Assembly (NCBI RefSeq): GCF_024228315.1
Contig: NZ_CP100454.1
Location: forward strand, 3,410,001 to 3,474,000
Direction of reading: 5' to 3'
Length of the DNA stretch: 64,000 bases
DNA from: Halomarina pelagica
GTDB lineage: Archaea > Halobacteriota > Halobacteria > Halobacteriales > Haloarculaceae
Shown here: one piece after another, positions 50,661 through 57,545 of the stretch
Position numbering within the stretch: the first letter of the stretch is position 1
How the letters are laid out: each line of letters opens with the position of its first letter
Notes under the pieces: model-generated
The model's database searches: none
Seen by the model: the letters and a program-made list of their open reading frames with translations, nothing else
What the model was told of the DNA's origin: nothing
Position numbers and translations under genes: made by a program

Positions 50661-52049
50661 ATGACATCCGGCCGATCACCAGAATCGCCGACCGATCAGT
50701 CGTCCTCGCGGGGCGACCGACCGACCTCCGGATCCGGGGGGCGGTCGGGTCGCGGCCTCCTCGCCGTCGTCGTCGCGGTGCTCGTCGTGAGCGCGATCGT
50801 CGGCGCGTTCGCGCTGAGCGGTCTCGGCGGGGGCGGTGGTGCGCTCGGGATCGCGGACGAGAGCCCGCCCGAGGACCGGTCGAACGCGGCGCTGTCCGGG
50901 AACGGTAGCGACGACGCGTCGGCCGACTCGACGCCGTCGACGGAGGAATCGACGCACGCGTCCGACGCTCGCTCCGGCGACGATGCCGGGAGATCCGGCA
51001 ACGGGTCTTCCGTGGGATCTCCCCCGAACGCATCCACGAACGCGTCCGCGAGTACGTCGTCCTCGTCCGTCGACTACAACGGCGGCGAGTCGCCTTTCGA
51101 CGGGGCGAACGCGACCCGCGGGAGCGGGAATTCGTCCAGCGCGGCGGAGAACGCGTCCGACGAGAGCGGAAACGAGTCCGCGAGCGCGAACTCGTCGGAG
51201 ACTTCGTCCGGCGGTGACGGACCGTCCGATTCGGCCAGCGCCGACGGATCCCCCGACTCGACCGGTGACAGTACGCAGGACCAGAACCAGAGCGGCAGCC
51301 AGTCGTCCGACCAGTCGTACGTGGGGACGAACGGAAACCAGACGCAGAACCAGACGGCCGACCAGACGCAGGGACAGGCGCAGGCGGGTAACGACAGCAC
51401 GCAGCGACAGAGTCAGACGTACGATCAGGATCAGGACCAGACCTATCGCGGCGACGACGGGACACAGCGACAGAACCAGACCGTCGACCAGGATCAGGCG
51501 CAGGTACAGCGGCGCGACGACGCGACCCAGGTGCAGGACCAGGCGGTCGAGCAGGACCAGACGCAGACCGGGGGCGGCGACGGGAACGCGCAGTACCAGA
51601 ACCAGTCGTCCTCGCAGGACCAGCGGCAGGTGCAGAACGGGACCGCGATCGTGCAGTCGGGGGTCCAGAACAACTCGCTGGTGCAGGTCGGCGGCGACAA
51701 CCAGCAGCAGGCGCTCGGGACGCAGACCGTGCAGGTGCAGGCGGACGGGAACGTGACCGTCAACCTCCTGCTCGTCGTGCTCCAGCACCAGGACGCGAGC
51801 GTCGACGAGACCCGCCAGCAGCAGGCCCAGGGCGCACAGCAGGTGCAGATCCAGACGCCCGGCGACGCGAACGTGACGCGCAGCCTCTTCGTCCTTCAGG
51901 GCGAGAACGGGGGGACCGTCGCTCCCTTCTCGCCCGAGTTGCTCGGGCGGATCGCGAGCATCCTCGAGCAGTTCGGACCGAGCGCGACGGACTCGCCGAG
52001 CGCGGCCGCTACGCCGAACGGTACGAACGCGACCGCCGCCGGCGCGTAG
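50661..52049 (+). CDS. Membrane-anchored Gln-ladder repeat protein 1
   Basis: 462 residues. A basic N-terminus is followed by one membrane helix (residues 33-55) and a 160-residue Ser/Asn/Gly/Asp linker with many NxS/T sites, likely glycosylated. Residues about 222-326 form five repeats of exactly 21 residues, with Gln at repeat positions 6, 8, 10, 14, 16 and usually 18 or 20 and a GD/GN turn at the start. Less regular repeats follow (QSGVQNNSLVQVGGDNQQQ), then a C-terminal hydrophobic patch and a Pro/Ala/Asn tail. The alternating Gln face predicts stacked beta-strands. I recognise no described family. Confidence 0.8.
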   Translation: MTSGRSPESPTDQSSSRGDRPTSGSGGRSGRGLLAVVVAVLVVSAIVGAFALSGLGGGGGALGIADESPPEDRSNAALSGNGSDDASADSTPSTEESTHASDARSGDDAGRSGNGSSVGSPPNASTNASASTSSSSVDYNGGESPFDGANATRGSGNSSSAAENASDESGNESASANSSETSSGGDGPSDSASADGSPDSTGDSTQDQNQSGSQSSDQSYVGTNGNQTQNQTADQTQGQAQAGNDSTQRQSQTYDQDQDQTYRGDDGTQRQNQTVDQDQAQVQRRDDATQVQDQAVEQDQTQTGGGDGNAQYQNQSSSQDQRQVQNGTAIVQSGVQNNSLVQVGGDNQQQALGTQTVQVQADGNVTVNLLLVVLQHQDASVDETRQQQAQGAQQVQIQTPGDANVTRSLFVLQGENGGTVAPFSPELLGRIASILEQFGPSATDSPSAAATPNGTNATAAGA

Positions 52050-52478
52050 CGAGTACGTCTCCACGCGCCCCGATTTTCTCCGTCGAACCGCGAAGCGCTC
52101 GACGGAAGTACCAGTACGTCGATGACTGTTCACGAACGGTTCATCCCCCGCCTGTACGACGCAACAGCGCTGTGTGGCCGGTTTTTCCATACGCCGATGA
52201 AAGAACGATGTTGAACTGTCACTCGACGGTGTTACCCACCGTCACGAGACCTGGCGATGCCGGGCACTATCTCGACCCTATTGTACGCAGGGAAAGAGCG
52301 TGCCCCCGGCAGAACTATCCAATTCAAGTGAACGTTACGGACCGAATCGCCTCACTGGAACGGGGGGACCGGCAGTCATTAACGGAGAGTGAATCGATTC
52401 GCGTGACGTTTAACGGAGTTGCGTCCTCATTTCATCTATCTATAATAAAGTCCCTCTGCGGTGGTGTATTCTCCGCGG
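52050..52478. other. 429-bp intergenic region before Gln-ladder gene 2
   Basis: No supported gene; translated frames have no family features. The 3' end holds the promoter of the next gene. Confidence 0.55.
52439..52450 (+). promoter_or_regulatory. TATA-like promoter of Gln-ladder gene 2
   Basis: TCTATAATAAAG ends 28 bp before the ATG. The same 12-mer precedes Gln-ladder gene 3 at 54621. Both leaders also end in GCGGATG at the start codon. This shows that the two genes carry a common promoter. Confidence 0.75.
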
Positions 52479-54125
52479 ATGTTAGAAGAAGAAAGATCCG
52501 AACGGAAATCGCGACGCGACTCTCGCGGTGTCGCAACGGTCACGCGCCTGCTAACGATCGCCATGGTGGCGGTCGTGATCGTCGGGAGCGGGGCCGCCGT
52601 CGTCGGTGCGGTCGGCGACGGTTCCGCGACGAGTTCGGGCGCGAACGAACAAGAACAGACACAGGGTCAGAACCAGGACCTCTCCGGCGTACAGTTCGCC
52701 GCCCTGAGCGATCAGGTCGCCGGACAGGACGCCGATCAGCGGCAAGGTCAGGCCCAGGGTGGCGACCACAACACCCAGATCCAGGGCCAGTACAAGGGTC
52801 AGATCGGCATCAACGAGCAGTACGGCGCCCTCAACTTCCAGCTGCTCGAGCAGACCAGCCGTCAGGCCGAAGCGCAGGTGCAGACCGGGTCCTACAACAC
52901 CCAGGTCCAGTACCAGATCGGCCAGCAGTACGGTGCCCAGGGTCAGCTCGCGATCAACAGCGTCCAGACGCTGAACCAGTACGAATCGCAGTACCAGGTT
53001 CAGGAGCAGTCGGGCGTCTTCAACGACCAGTTCCAGGGCCAGTACGACAGCCAGCGCGGCGAGAACTACCAGGTCGCCGTGAACAGCGAGCAGAGCCTGA
53101 ACCAGGGCGTCGCCCAGGAACAGCGCCAGAAGCAGTCCGGCATCGTCAACGATCAGACCCAGCAGCAGGGCGTGAGCCAGAACGCCGCGCAGGGCCAGCT
53201 GTTCGCCGCGAACAGCCAGCAGGACACCACCCAGACGGCCACGCAGGCTCAGGAGCAGGCCCAGAAGGGTGCCCTCAACGACCAGGAACAGTCGCAGTCG
53301 GGCGACCAGACCGCGGTCAACGGGCAGACGGGCGTGAACAACGACCAGGAGACGACGCAGGACAGCGAGCAGGGCCAGGGCCAGAGCCAGGCCGGCGTGC
53401 TCAACGACCAGGGTCAGAACCAGTCGTTCTCCCAGGAGGCTTCCTCGACGCAGGCGAGCGTCGACAGCAGCCAGACCGCCGACCAGTCCAACACGCAGGA
53501 CCAGGGTCAGAACCAGCGGGGCGTCCTGAACGACCAGGCCCAGAGCCAGGACGGTAGTCAGACGCAGACCGAGGTCCAGTCCGCCGAGGACAGCGACCAG
53601 AGTCAGTCCCAGGACGCCGACCAGGGTCAGGGTCAGAGTCAGCGCGGCGTCGTGAACGACCAGGAGCAGACCCAGTCGTACGACCAGGGTCAGACCCAGG
53701 GTCAGTCCGCAGAGGACAGCGACCAGAGCCAGTCCCAGGACACCGAGCAGGACGCCACGCAGACCCAGCGCGGTGCCCTGAACGACCAGACCGAGAGTCA
53801 GGACACCGAACAGGAGCAGGGTCAGTACCAGACCGGCGAGGACAACTCGCAGGAGCAGACCCAGGACGCCGAGCAGGACGCCGGCCAGTCCCAGTCGGGG
53901 ATCCTCAACGACCAGGACGTGGACCAGGACATCGACCAGACGCAGGGTCAGTCCCAGTCCGGTGAGGACAACGACCAGGACCAGAGCCAGAGCGCCGAGC
54001 AGGACGCGTCCCAGAGCCAGAGCGGCGTCGGTAACACCCAGTCGCAGGACCAGTCTTCGAGCCAGAGCCAGTCTCAGGTTCAGCTGGGCAGCGACTCGGA
54101 CGTGAGCGCCGATTCGCTCATCTGA
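52479..54125 (+). CDS. Secreted Gln-ladder repeat protein 2
   Basis: 548 residues. A signal or anchor sequence covers residues 20-46 (VTRLLTIAMVAVVIVGSGAA). The rest is repeat: from residue 54 there are eleven units of 42 residues (one of 41, one of 43) and a final partial unit. Most begin G-x-x-N-[DT]-Q. Each 42-residue unit is two 21-residue halves with Gln at half-positions 6, 8, 10, 14, 16 and 20. Early units carry Tyr, Phe, Ile and Leu between the Gln; later units are enriched in Asp, Glu and Ser. A beta-solenoid or amyloid-like fibre with an acidic exterior is predicted. It ends in a short acidic tail. Confidence 0.85.
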   Translation: MLEEERSERKSRRDSRGVATVTRLLTIAMVAVVIVGSGAAVVGAVGDGSATSSGANEQEQTQGQNQDLSGVQFAALSDQVAGQDADQRQGQAQGGDHNTQIQGQYKGQIGINEQYGALNFQLLEQTSRQAEAQVQTGSYNTQVQYQIGQQYGAQGQLAINSVQTLNQYESQYQVQEQSGVFNDQFQGQYDSQRGENYQVAVNSEQSLNQGVAQEQRQKQSGIVNDQTQQQGVSQNAAQGQLFAANSQQDTTQTATQAQEQAQKGALNDQEQSQSGDQTAVNGQTGVNNDQETTQDSEQGQGQSQAGVLNDQGQNQSFSQEASSTQASVDSSQTADQSNTQDQGQNQRGVLNDQAQSQDGSQTQTEVQSAEDSDQSQSQDADQGQGQSQRGVVNDQEQTQSYDQGQTQGQSAEDSDQSQSQDTEQDATQTQRGALNDQTESQDTEQEQGQYQTGEDNSQEQTQDAEQDAGQSQSGILNDQDVDQDIDQTQGQSQSGEDNDQDQSQSAEQDASQSQSGVGNTQSQDQSSSQSQSQVQLGSDSDVSADSLI

Positions 54126-54388
54126 TTCCGCTCGCTCCCGTCGACGAATCGCTGACGATCACGAACTCCGTCGTTTTTTCGAAGTGCCGCGTCGATCACG
54201 CCTAGACGTCCGTGTCTCGCGATCGGTGCGACGCCCGTTTCCCACGATCTGTGCGACGTCACTCCACGATGCGTCGGTGGTGCCGGAGACGCTGACGAGA
54301 GAGGAACGAACGCCGAAGAGATGATCGATCGGCCGCACGCGGAGGGAGCGAGGGAGCGAGGAAGCGGGAGCACGAGAGCGCGATCTTC

Positions 54389-54444
54389 GGAAGAGGAAGA
54401 GGAAGAGGAAGAGGAAGAGGAAGAGGAAGAGGAAGAGGAAGAGG
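54389..54444. repeat. GGAAGA hexanucleotide microsatellite, about 9 copies
   Basis: A perfect 56-bp run of the hexamer GGAAGA. On the plus strand it could encode polyglutamate; on the minus strand Phe-Leu repeats. Slip-prone at replication. Confidence 0.9.
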
Positions 54445-54620
54445 CCAGTCAAACGCGTCCGTCCGTGACGCTCTCCGGCGGTCGGATCGCTATCCCATAC
54501 TCGAAGCGGCAATATCTCAAATTACGTAGTAGATGATCTAAATAAGGTTCAGTTCCGAGATAATGCCACGTCTAACGGATCGGGGCGAGATTAAACCCGA
54601 ACGTATGTCCCGTCAATCAG

Positions 54621-54632
54621 TCTATAATAAAG
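54621..54632 (+). promoter_or_regulatory. TATA-like promoter of Gln-ladder gene 3
   Basis: TCTATAATAAAG, identical to the 12-mer at 52439, ends 27 bp before the ATG. The leader also ends in CGCGGATG as in gene 2. Confidence 0.75.
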
Positions 54633-54659
54633 CGTGTCTGTGATGTGGCATCGTCGCGG

Positions 54660-55661
54660 ATGATTCCAAACAGTCGGCGCTCCAGTGCGAGCGCAGGAAG
54701 GAGAACGACGGTCACGCGGCTCATCGCGACCCTGATCGTCGTCATGCTCGTCGCGAGCAGTTTCGCTGGCACGGTGAGTGCCAACGGAGAGGCGACCGCG
54801 ACGGACAACGAGCAGACACAGGCACAGTCACAGTACAAGGCGCAGTGGTCCGCCCAGGTCGGGACCGACAGCGACCAATCGCAGTCGCAGTCGACGGATC
54901 AGGCCCAGGCGGAGGCGCAGTCCGGCGAGGACAACGTACAGAGCCAGGAGCAGAACGCCATCGAGGGACAGGCGCAGGTTCAGCTGGCCGACGACGCCAC
55001 CCAGAGCCAGGATCAGGACCAGACGCAGGAGGAGACCCAGGACCAGTCCGGCGAGGACAACGTGCAGGAGCAGGAACAGAACACCGGGCAGGGCCAGGGT
55101 CAGGCGCAGCTGAACGACGGCGGCGAGCAGAGCCAGGACCAGGACCAGAGCCAGGACCAGGACCAGAGCCAGGACGGCACCGACGGCGTCCAGACCGAGT
55201 CGCAGAACCAGGGGCAGGTGCAGACGCAGGCCCAGTTCGGGTTCGGCGGCTTCCAGCTCGGCGTGCAGGCCCAGGACCAGGAGCGTACGACGGACGACTA
55301 CAGCGCGGGCGAGTCCCAGCTTCAGGGCCAGTCCCAGAGCGATAGTCTGACCGGCGGCGCGCAGTTCCAGTCACTGAGCGAGTCCGACGACGACCACACG
55401 GAAGCGTACTTCCAGGGCCAGGGAACCGTCGAGGAGTGCGACTGCGACGGCGAACAGAGCCAGGACCAGAGCCAGGACACCGGCGCGCAGGAGCAGTCCC
55501 AGGGCGACATGACGCAGACCCAGGACGAGGACGCCGGGTCCCAGAGCCAGTCGGGCGGTGACGTCACCGTCGACTCCGCGCTCCAGTTCGGAGCCGACTC
55601 GGGCGACGAACCCGACCAGAGCCAGGAGCAGGACCAGAGCCAGGACCAGCAGCAGAGCTGA
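54660..55661 (+). CDS. Secreted Gln-ladder repeat protein 3
   Basis: 333 residues. A basic N-terminus and a hydrophobic segment (LIATLIVVMLVASSFAGTVSA, residues 21-41) form a Sec-type signal peptide, with likely cleavage after VSA. Residues about 68-193 are six 21-residue repeats in the same Gln register (6, 8, 10, 14, 16, 18, 20) as proteins 1 and 2. A glycine/phenylalanine patch (FGFGGFQLGVQ) follows, then irregular Gln/Asp/Ser segments with one ECDCDG motif, ending in a Gln-rich tail. The N-terminal RRTTVTRLI resembles RGVATVTRLL of protein 2. Predicted to be extracellular; function inferred only. Confidence 0.85.
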   Translation: MIPNSRRSSASAGRRTTVTRLIATLIVVMLVASSFAGTVSANGEATATDNEQTQAQSQYKAQWSAQVGTDSDQSQSQSTDQAQAEAQSGEDNVQSQEQNAIEGQAQVQLADDATQSQDQDQTQEETQDQSGEDNVQEQEQNTGQGQGQAQLNDGGEQSQDQDQSQDQDQSQDGTDGVQTESQNQGQVQTQAQFGFGGFQLGVQAQDQERTTDDYSAGESQLQGQSQSDSLTGGAQFQSLSESDDDHTEAYFQGQGTVEECDCDGEQSQDQSQDTGAQEQSQGDMTQTQDEDAGSQSQSGGDVTVDSALQFGADSGDEPDQSQEQDQSQDQQQS

Positions 55662-56081: not shown

Positions 56082-56229
56082 CCCACCCCTCGTGTCCGCA
56101 TAAATCGCTCGTGGAGGTCTAGCGGAGCAAAACCCGGCAATTATTGCCATATAATGGTGTGAAACACGCGCACGGCGCTCGCTCTCCCCTCCCCTCTCCC
56201 GCGCGACTTATGCGGACACGAGGGGTGGG
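56082..56229. other. Replication origin: inverted pair of ORB-like elements around an AT-rich core
   Basis: A 22-bp element beginning CCCACCCCTCGTGTCCGC lies at 56082-56103, and its exact reverse complement at 56208-56229. The match continues for four of the next five bases outward. Each element has a G-string (GGGGTGGG) at its outer end, as in haloarchaeal origin recognition boxes. Between them lies GGCAATTATTGCCATATAAT (56131-56150), a probable duplex-unwinding element with a small dyad. The orc1/cdc6 gene starts 86 bp to the right. The core differs from the classic oriC1-type ORB. Confidence 0.85.
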
Positions 56230-56315: not shown

Positions 56316-57545
56316 ATGCCCTCGTTTCGGAAGCAGACGGACATCATCGAGAACGACATGGTTCTCGGGGAGGACTGGGTGCCGGAGGAACTTCCCGAGC
56401 GCGAGGCCGAGCTGTCGCAGATGTACGAGGCGCTCTCGCCCGCGACGCGCGGGTTCACCCCGGACAACATGTTCCTCTACGGCAAGGCCGGACAGGGGAA
56501 GACGGCCGCGACCCGCTACGCGCTCAACGACCTCAAGCTCTTCTTCGAGGACGAGATGGACGAGGACCTCACCCCCGTCTACGTCTCCTGTAACGAACTC
56601 ACCTCGTCGTACCAGGTCACGGGACAGCTCCTCGTGGAACTCGACGACGACGTCACGGAGCGACCGAACGGGCACGCACCGGACATCCTCTACTCGCGGC
56701 TGTTCGGTCGCCTCGACGGGATCGGCGGCACCATCGTCATCGTCTTCGACGAGATCGACGCGATCGGCGACGACGATCAGATCCTCTATCAGATCCCGCG
56801 CGCGCACTCGAACGGCAAGCTGGAGGAGGCGAAGGTGTCGTTCGTCGGCATCTCGAACGACTTCTCCTTCCGCGACAACCTCTCCCCGAAGGTCAAGGAC
56901 ACGCTCTACGACTACGTCATCGACTTCCCGTCCTACGACTCCCAGCAGCTCTGTGACATCCTGAAGCGGCGGGCGGAGATCGCCCTCGCGGACGACGTGC
57001 TCGACGACGGCGTGATCCAGCTCTGCTCGGCGTACGCCGCCAAGGACGAGGGGTCCGCGCGCCAGGCGATCAACCACCTCTACAAGGCGAGCAAGATGGC
57101 CCAGACCGAGGGCGACGACGTGGTGACGACCGACCACGTCGAGACGGCCCACGACATCCTCAAGCGCAACCACGTGATGGAGGGCATCCGCGGGCTCACC
57201 CCGCAGAACAAGTACGTCCTCACCGCGGTCACCCTGCTCGAAGTGCGCGACGAGACGCCGGCGCGAACGGGCGAGGTCTACCCCGTCTACCGCGAGATCG
57301 CCGAGAGCGTCGGGAGCGAACCGCTCGTCCAGCGTCGCATGCGCGATCACCTCCAGGAACTCTCCCTCCACGGCCAGATCGCCCTCACCAGCCAGAGCGG
57401 CGGCGTCAAAGGGGGCACCTACTACGTCGCCGAGTTGAACACCGACCTCGAGGCGACCATCACCGTCCTCTCGGAGATCGACGACGCGATGCACGAGGTC
57501 GCGGAGGACATCCGCGCGATCGCCGAGATGAAGGGGATGCTCTAA
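56316..57545 (+). CDS. Orc1/Cdc6 family replication initiator
   Basis: 409 residues, the normal archaeal length. AAA+ Walker A is YGKAGQGKTAATRY (near residue 50), Walker B is VIVFDEIDAIGDDD (near residue 145), sensor 1 is VSFVGISNDFSFRDNL, and the C-terminal winged helix is around residues 290-400 (RTGEVYPVYREIAES...). It binds the ORBs and loads the MCM helicase. It is adjacent to a symmetrical ORB pair, so this gene and origin form one unit. A TTATTTATT box at 56284-56292 precedes the ATG by about 25 nt. Confidence 0.95.
   Translation: MPSFRKQTDIIENDMVLGEDWVPEELPEREAELSQMYEALSPATRGFTPDNMFLYGKAGQGKTAATRYALNDLKLFFEDEMDEDLTPVYVSCNELTSSYQVTGQLLVELDDDVTERPNGHAPDILYSRLFGRLDGIGGTIVIVFDEIDAIGDDDQILYQIPRAHSNGKLEEAKVSFVGISNDFSFRDNLSPKVKDTLYDYVIDFPSYDSQQLCDILKRRAEIALADDVLDDGVIQLCSAYAAKDEGSARQAINHLYKASKMAQTEGDDVVTTDHVETAHDILKRNHVMEGIRGLTPQNKYVLTAVTLLEVRDETPARTGEVYPVYREIAESVGSEPLVQRRMRDHLQELSLHGQIALTSQSGGVKGGTYYVAELNTDLEATITVLSEIDDAMHEVAEDIRAIAEMKGML

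Follow-up and report, generated by a model that had tools for sequence, protein, structure and literature searches.

A three-gene cluster of Halomarina pelagica suggests an undescribed archaeal extracellular fibre system with curlin-like spacing

Described curli and archaeal amyloid-like proteins

The closest described counterparts of the proteins analyzed here are the bacterial curli, which are amyloids of biofilms (CsgA/CsgB, PF07012; E. coli CsgA, 8enq; Pontibacter R15.5, 8c50). The minimal curli repeat, which occurs in tandem, has been given as X6-Q-X-G-X2-N-X10 (Dueholm et al. 2012, PMC3521004), and the curlin kernel as N-$-Psi-$-Psi-$-Q-X-G-X-X-N-$-Psi-$-Psi-$-Q, with an arc 2 of four to five residues (PMC10192328). 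In this Q-x10-Q kernel the inward positions are small hydrophobic residues, Ser or Thr (Sleutel 2023, PMC10192328), and the curlin R15.5 ends in a half unit (PMC10192328). The haloarchaeal proteins resemble curli in the Q-x-G-x2-N arc and the Q-x10-Q spacing, in a unit of 21 to 23 residues with alternating inward and outward positions, in their apparent export, in the number of units (several to ∼30), in the half-unit end of many members, and in the presence of CsgA-sized paralogues in the same genome. They differ in having a Gln core where curli have A/I/V/S/T, Gln rather than Asn or Ser at position 1, an arc 2 of three rather than four to five residues, no CsgG, similarity below Pfam detection, an extra and putatively membrane-anchored partner, and an archaeal host.

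One archaeal curli-like repeat protein was mentioned in passing, as a non-curli match (Dueholm et al. 2012, PMC3521004); compared by its description only, it shares regularly spaced curli-like repeats and an archaeal origin with the present proteins, whereas the cluster, register, core composition and regulation are described here and not there. The SH protein of Methanospirillum hungatei forms the giant hoops of the methanogen sheath and is amyloid-like (PMC10593813). In the abstract of that account, SH is an archaeal extracellular amyloid-like beta-arch protein, as the present proteins may be, but no 21-residue Gln repeat is described for it, and by this description the two are set apart. 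The literature also links haloarchaeal biofilms to amyloid. In the polyglutamine polar zipper, beta-structure is held through stacked Gln side-chain amides. Stacked Gln amides would be common to both systems, but in the haloarchaeal proteins Gln alternates with polar or acidic residues, Gly/Asn arcs interrupt the ladder, and the unit is strict. To our knowledge, the compact and defined gene set reported here provides the first concrete amyloid candidates for haloarchaea. Its sequence suggests an undescribed archaeal extracellular fibre system.

Three genes with a shared 21-residue register

The genes lie in a 64,000-nucleotide stretch of H. pelagica DNA, referred to as the window. The three open reading frames reported in the initial annotation, P1, P2 and P3, each begin with ATG at the positions given in Table 1. 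Inspection agrees with the membrane anchor and glycosylatable linker that had been assigned to P1, which has an N-terminal hydrophobic segment, a sequon-rich linker and a total of 21 N-x-S/T sequons, and with the signal peptides assigned to P2 (one sequon) and P3 (none), both of which have signal-like N-termini. Exported-type N-termini are conserved among relatives, and P1 to P3 are likely exported proteins with a fibre or matrix role. Their composition is of low complexity and very acidic, with Gln contents of 13% (P1), 25% (P2) and 24% (P3). As had been supposed, the proteins match no described family: Pfam and NCBIfam scans of P1 to P3 assigned none, and a literature search found no description of the family. 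Two weak NCBIfam matches to P3 (E = 0.39 and 1.3) were judged to be chance. A perfect (GGAAGA)9.3 tract, possibly phase-variable, occupies part of the intergenic sequence before P3.

Table 1. Locations of the features discussed. Positions are those of the window unless preceded by a handle (L033 and the like).
Feature	Location	Strand	Extent	Remarks
P1	50661..52049	+	462 aa	Hydrophobic N-terminal anchor; sequon-rich linker of Ser/Thr/Asn/Gly; six 21-residue Gln units, all degenerate; C-terminal region conserved
P1 putative membrane anchor	50757..50825	+	residues 33-55	Hydrophobic segment; sequence inspection
P1 21-residue units	51255..51632	+	residues 199-324	
P1 conserved C-terminal region	51633..51938	+		QQQALxTQTVQVQ ... 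QQQAQGxQQxQxQTPGD; alignment
TCTATAATAAAG box upstream of P2	52439..52450	+	12 bp	
P2	52479..54125	+	548 aa	Signal-like N-terminus; 22 units of 21 residues, of which 15 carry Q-x-G-x2-N-x-Q-x3-Q; proposed main fibre subunit
P2 repeat array	52692..54080	+	residues 72-534	Conserved half unit comes next
(GGAAGA)9.3 tract	54389-54444			Intergenic
TCTATAATAAAG box upstream of P3	54621..54632	+	12 bp	
P3	54660..55661	+	333 aa	Signal-like N-terminus, seven 21-residue units and one C-terminal unit; register absent from middle region
P3 contiguous repeat units	54792..55232	+	residues 45-191	
Inverted repeat	56082-56111 and 56200-56229		30 nt	93% complementary
orc1/cdc6 gene	56316-57545			
Small paralogues	L075 8103-8504; L075 9318-9803; L040 4861-5337			L040 copy lies on a separate contig
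AsnC-type/TRASH-domain regulator	L075 10388-10978; L033 4708-6216; L054 3398-4000			Three related genomes
Gln/Glu-rich repeat proteins	L078 5994-8633; L079 5569-8385; L080 5414-8584; L081 5932-8943; L083 7023-10316; L084 4512-7514			Other haloarchaea

A shared 21-residue register, proposed on first reading of the sequence, is evident from identity autocorrelation, which in each of the three proteins peaks at lags of 42 and 21 residues when compared with 200 shuffles (z = 9.4 and 8.9 for P1, 21.0 and 15.3 for P2, and 8.3 and 6.3 for P3). The lags survive when Gln is ignored, with z = 14.2 at lag 42 in P2 and a weak signal at lag 21 in P3 (z = 1.8). The description of P2 as eleven double units that deviate by at most one residue is borne out: its 22 units are separated by exactly 21 residues in 20 of 21 spacings and by 22 in the other. 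Anchored at Gln 0, the unit reads Q0-x-G2-x-x-N5-x-Q7-x-Q9-x-Q11-x-x-x-Q15-x-Q17-x-Q19-x; in this frame, the Gln positions 6, 8, 10, 14, 16, 18 and 20 of the initial annotation become 7, 9, 11, 15, 17, 19 and 0. Gln occupies the ladder positions at frequencies of 0.68 to 0.99 (Q0 0.87, Q7 0.99, Q9 0.79, Q11 0.93, Q15 0.90, Q17 0.68, Q19 0.78) over 366 units of 23 proteins. Because the unit matrix was trained from P2 and units were kept at least 21 residues apart, this count serves as a description of the register and not as proof of it; the independent test is the autocorrelation. In the same set, the sole strongly conserved non-Gln positions are G2 (0.73; Ala 0.18) and N5 (0.58; Ser 0.30).

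The periodicity of Gln is beta-like, with power at 170 to 180 degrees (z = 9 to 20), in keeping with the earlier view of a beta-type repeat bearing Gln on one face. An alpha-helical or coiled-coil reading was rejected, the Gln signal at 100 degrees being absent. Gln fills 74% of the inward positions, with Asn at 8%, Ser and Ala at 5% each and acidic residues at 3%; at the outer strand positions, acidic residues account for 34%. In the comparison of P2 with Halomarina halobia, 94% of the core positions (Gln, Gly, Asn) and 64% of the remainder are identical. Most P2-type and small proteins end in a half unit, with the stop soon after the first strand (strand a, below). Loss of the register in homologues had been named beforehand as grounds for refutation; it is retained in other Haloarchaea.

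Two alternatives bear on whether this register reflects a fold at all. The proteins could be disordered, acidic, Gln-rich matrix polymers, serving as a hydrated glue or cross-linking substrate, in which the repeat arises from duplication and composition without a folded solenoid. The low complexity and acidity noted above and the low confidence of the AlphaFold2 models described below would fit such polymers, but a strict period with partitioned faces (3% acidic in the core versus 34% outside), conserved Gly and Asn arc positions, and stronger conservation of the core are not expected of them, and we consider this explanation doubtful. Alternatively, CAG slippage could have produced meaningless low-complexity reading frames, given that the Gln codon is almost always CAG and that the array is partly tandem at the DNA level. 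However, the orthologues of a second species, H. halobia, keep the length, register and core residues, with dN/dS values of 0.56 (P1), 0.48 (P2) and 0.30 (P3), the exported N-termini are conserved, and promoter boxes are exclusive to these genes. A slippage artefact was rejected on the orthologue conservation and the dN/dS range of 0.30 to 0.56, and we give it almost no credence.

Curlin spacing and predicted structure

Both published curli signatures are present in the units. The motif Q-x-G-x2-N-x-Q-x3-Q occurs 15 times in P2, where shuffles give an expectation of 0.06, twice in P3, and not at all in P1 because the units of P1 are degenerate. Among 279 contiguous units, the minimal Q-x-G-x2-N is found in 54% and Q-x-[GA]-x2-[NS] in 76%. 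The Q-x10-Q spacing is present as well (Q0 and Q11, at the frequencies given above), with Gln at the inward positions versus A/I/V/S/T in curlins, and G2 and N5 coincide with the two conserved arc positions of curlin. At the level of sequence, the haloarchaeal unit is the curlin kernel with Gln at Psi, Gln in place of the first Asn, and a three-residue arc 2. Given the 15 sites in P2 and the kernel match, the initial annotation was therefore wrong to deny that this is the spacing of the curlin motif.

Sites were also scored with a curlin matrix derived from bacterial sequences only (E. coli CsgA and CsgB, Pseudomonas, Rhizobium and Indioceanicola plasmid curlins, and part of R15.5). P2 has 18 sites above 6 bits, compared with maxima of 9 in 200 full shuffles and 14 in 200 shuffles with Gln fixed. 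The corresponding numbers are 9 sites for P1 (maxima of 6 and 7) and 6 for P3 (maxima of 5 and 8), so the P3 count does not significantly exceed what its Gln lattice gives. A Halogranum protein of 221 aa contains eight exact Q-x-G-x2-N-x-A-x3-Q motifs (shuffle maxima of 3 and 4). When a profile of P2 relatives was searched against the PDB, the single good match was the curlin R15.5 (8c50, E = 1.1e-5), a result to be read with caution given a compositional bias of 49.6 bits; 8c50 was again the top match of a profile of the small relatives (E = 0.28). No match to the Pfam curlin family PF07012 reached the gathering score in P1 to P3 or in six small relatives, and 116 haloarchaeal genomes yielded sub-threshold matches only, whereas E. 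coli exceeds the cut-off. A whole-genome search for CsgG gave no match. A cell that lacks an outer membrane would have no need of the CsgG pore.

The curlin likeness may be convergent. Any secreted beta-arch of 11-residue half repeats would then tend to Q-x-G-x-x-N, and the system could work in a curli-like manner while being unrelated to curli, which is compatible with a fibre system. The absence of a CsgG gene and of a Pfam match is in line with convergence, as are the unit of 21 versus 22 to 23 residues and the Gln core versus one of small hydrophobic residues, Ser or Thr. The canonical Ala-bearing motifs of Halogranum and of the small paralogues in the present genome look intermediate, although convergence is still compatible with them, and we rate it at slightly less than even odds. 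Because the Pfam threshold is not reached, CsgG was not found and the fold rests on sequence inference, membership of the curli is not claimed; on present evidence, what we propose is a curli-like working of the system.

Two AlphaFold2 predictions were obtained, one of P2 with ten full-length homologues (model 1) and one of seven units with a 66-row in-register alignment (model 2). Model 1 (pLDDT 42.2, pTM 0.34) has one long strand of 17 to 18 residues per unit with turns at x-G-x-x. In model 2 (pLDDT 40.9, pTM 0.28), each unit is divided into two strands, with breaks at x-G-x-x and at positions 12 to 14, and this modelled layout, itself of low confidence, is the arch pattern of curlin. Nearly all modelled residues fall below pLDDT 60. 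Foldseek returned no significant match for either model; for model 2, CsgA ranked first (E = 0.58) and FapC fourth, neither significantly. On the solenoid, for which the initial annotation had proposed structure prediction, both models are of low confidence, and the two-strand arch appears in model 2 only. Given the low pLDDT and the non-significant Foldseek results, the fold proposed for P2 is inferred from its sequence. When repeats are perfect, AlphaFold2 may produce spurious solenoids (PMC11795689), so a confident model alone would not have settled the fold.

The strands of model 1 accord with a different architecture, in which long antiparallel strands of ∼17 residues make one turn per unit at x-G-x-x, the 42-residue double unit is a hairpin, and the product is a flat, Gln-faced, silk-like or glue-like sheet rather than a curli-type solenoid. 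The 42-residue period of P2 is stronger than the 21-residue period, Gln parity is held through positions 11 to 15 as fits a continuous strand, and opposite-charge counts lean slightly toward such a sheet. However, model 1 is also of low confidence (pLDDT 42), and model 2, from the deeper in-register alignment, has two strands per unit split at both arcs. The small paralogues, moreover, consist of single 21-residue units without strong 42-residue alternation, and unit-to-unit identity slightly favours parallel stacking (z = 3.7 versus 0.8 for the antiparallel map), a weak test that local duplication confounds. We judge the antiparallel sheet unlikely.

Our main reading, to which we assign a probability of roughly 0.6, is that the cluster encodes a secreted haloarchaeal fibre system of curli-like beta-arch solenoids, in which P1 would be the anchor and P2 the main subunit, and which would operate without Csg machinery. 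Each 21-residue unit would form one beta-arch, composed of strand a (Q15-x-Q17-x-Q19-x-Q0), arc 1 (x-G-x-x), strand b (N5-x-Q7-x-Q9-x-Q11) and the three-residue arc 2. The units would stack into a solenoid with a Gln hydrogen-bond zipper as its core and an acidic surface suited to molar salt. After export, P2 would fold into Gln-zipped rungs, and its terminal half unit could allow end-to-end joining of copies. At the membrane, the fibre would be tethered or nucleated by P1, with its sequon-rich, probably glycosylated linker and its degenerate units, and P3 would be a minor subunit. The general secretion route would suffice for export because there is no outer membrane. Polymerized in this manner, the proteins may function in the matrix, in biofilms or in adhesion. 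A more specific version is tentative and falls somewhat short of even odds: a natural archaeal functional amyloid, namely, a curli-type solenoid with an almost pure Gln core that acts as an encoded polar zipper for molar salt. In this version the fibre would have a nucleator of its own, anchored in the membrane, its genes would be served by the two private promoter boxes, and Csg machinery would be absent. Should the fold prove to be of the curli type, the curli architecture would dispense with an outer-membrane secretion pore and have Gln replacing the hydrophobic core, which would bear on polyglutamine amyloid, the origin of curli and salt-proof protein materials.

Relatives, small paralogues and promoter boxes

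The cluster is syntenic across three related genomes: H. halobia and a further genome from the genus share the order P1-P2-P3, placed between the gene for a DUF7551 protein and orc1/cdc6. P2 is 76% identical to its Halomarina counterpart. P1 relatives were found in Halomarina, Halogranum, Haloferax and Halobellus, and the last three genera have two-gene P2-P1 versions. In total, P2 matches were present in 7/391 haloarchaeal genomes and matches to the small-protein profile in 18/391 at E = 0.01, several of them weak. Three further genomes of the same genus have no match, so the trait is patchy. A Halobacteriota-wide sample of 393 genomes returned only haloarchaea already known to carry the family. 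No relative was detected on virus contigs, the plasmid search for the Halogranum relative found none, and no RNA family was found in the 44 to 60 kb portion of the window.

A 30-nt inverted repeat lies immediately upstream of orc1/cdc6 and is probably the origin-recognition-box pair of a replication origin adjoining the cluster. The adjacency of the cluster and orc1 is retained in the three related genomes. A profile of the family also matched exported proteins of ∼880 to 1100 aa in other haloarchaea that carry a different, Gln/Glu-rich repeat (QEVEDGDDNEQ...); they are possibly a sister family.

The H. pelagica genome contains three secreted-looking, CsgA-sized paralogues of 134 to 162 aa with few units each (up to ∼5). 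In both relatives, the neighbourhood that corresponds to that of the L075 pair also contains related small genes. The box TCTATAATAAAG occurs exactly twice in the 4.6-Mb genome, ahead of P2 and P3 only; it is retained in H. halobia and is also found in the third genome, where it is altered before P2. A different sequence, G-N-ATAACAAAT-R-Y-GG, is common to the three small paralogues and absent from the rest of the genome; two of its copies lie on one contig and the third on a separate one. Duplication of promoter and gene together could explain part of this sharing among the small paralogues. The two private putative promoter boxes argue for dedicated, co-ordinated expression of the curlin-like genes, and they make the gene set readily testable by expression and deletion.

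In three related genomes, the small curlin-like genes adjoin a gene for an AsnC-type/TRASH-domain protein, which is a candidate regulator of these genes or a candidate link to metal. One of the small paralogues (L075 9318-9803) carries a long Lys/His/Asp-rich stretch (KKDHKKD...) ahead of its curlin-like units, an unusual feature for an acidic haloarchaeal proteome.
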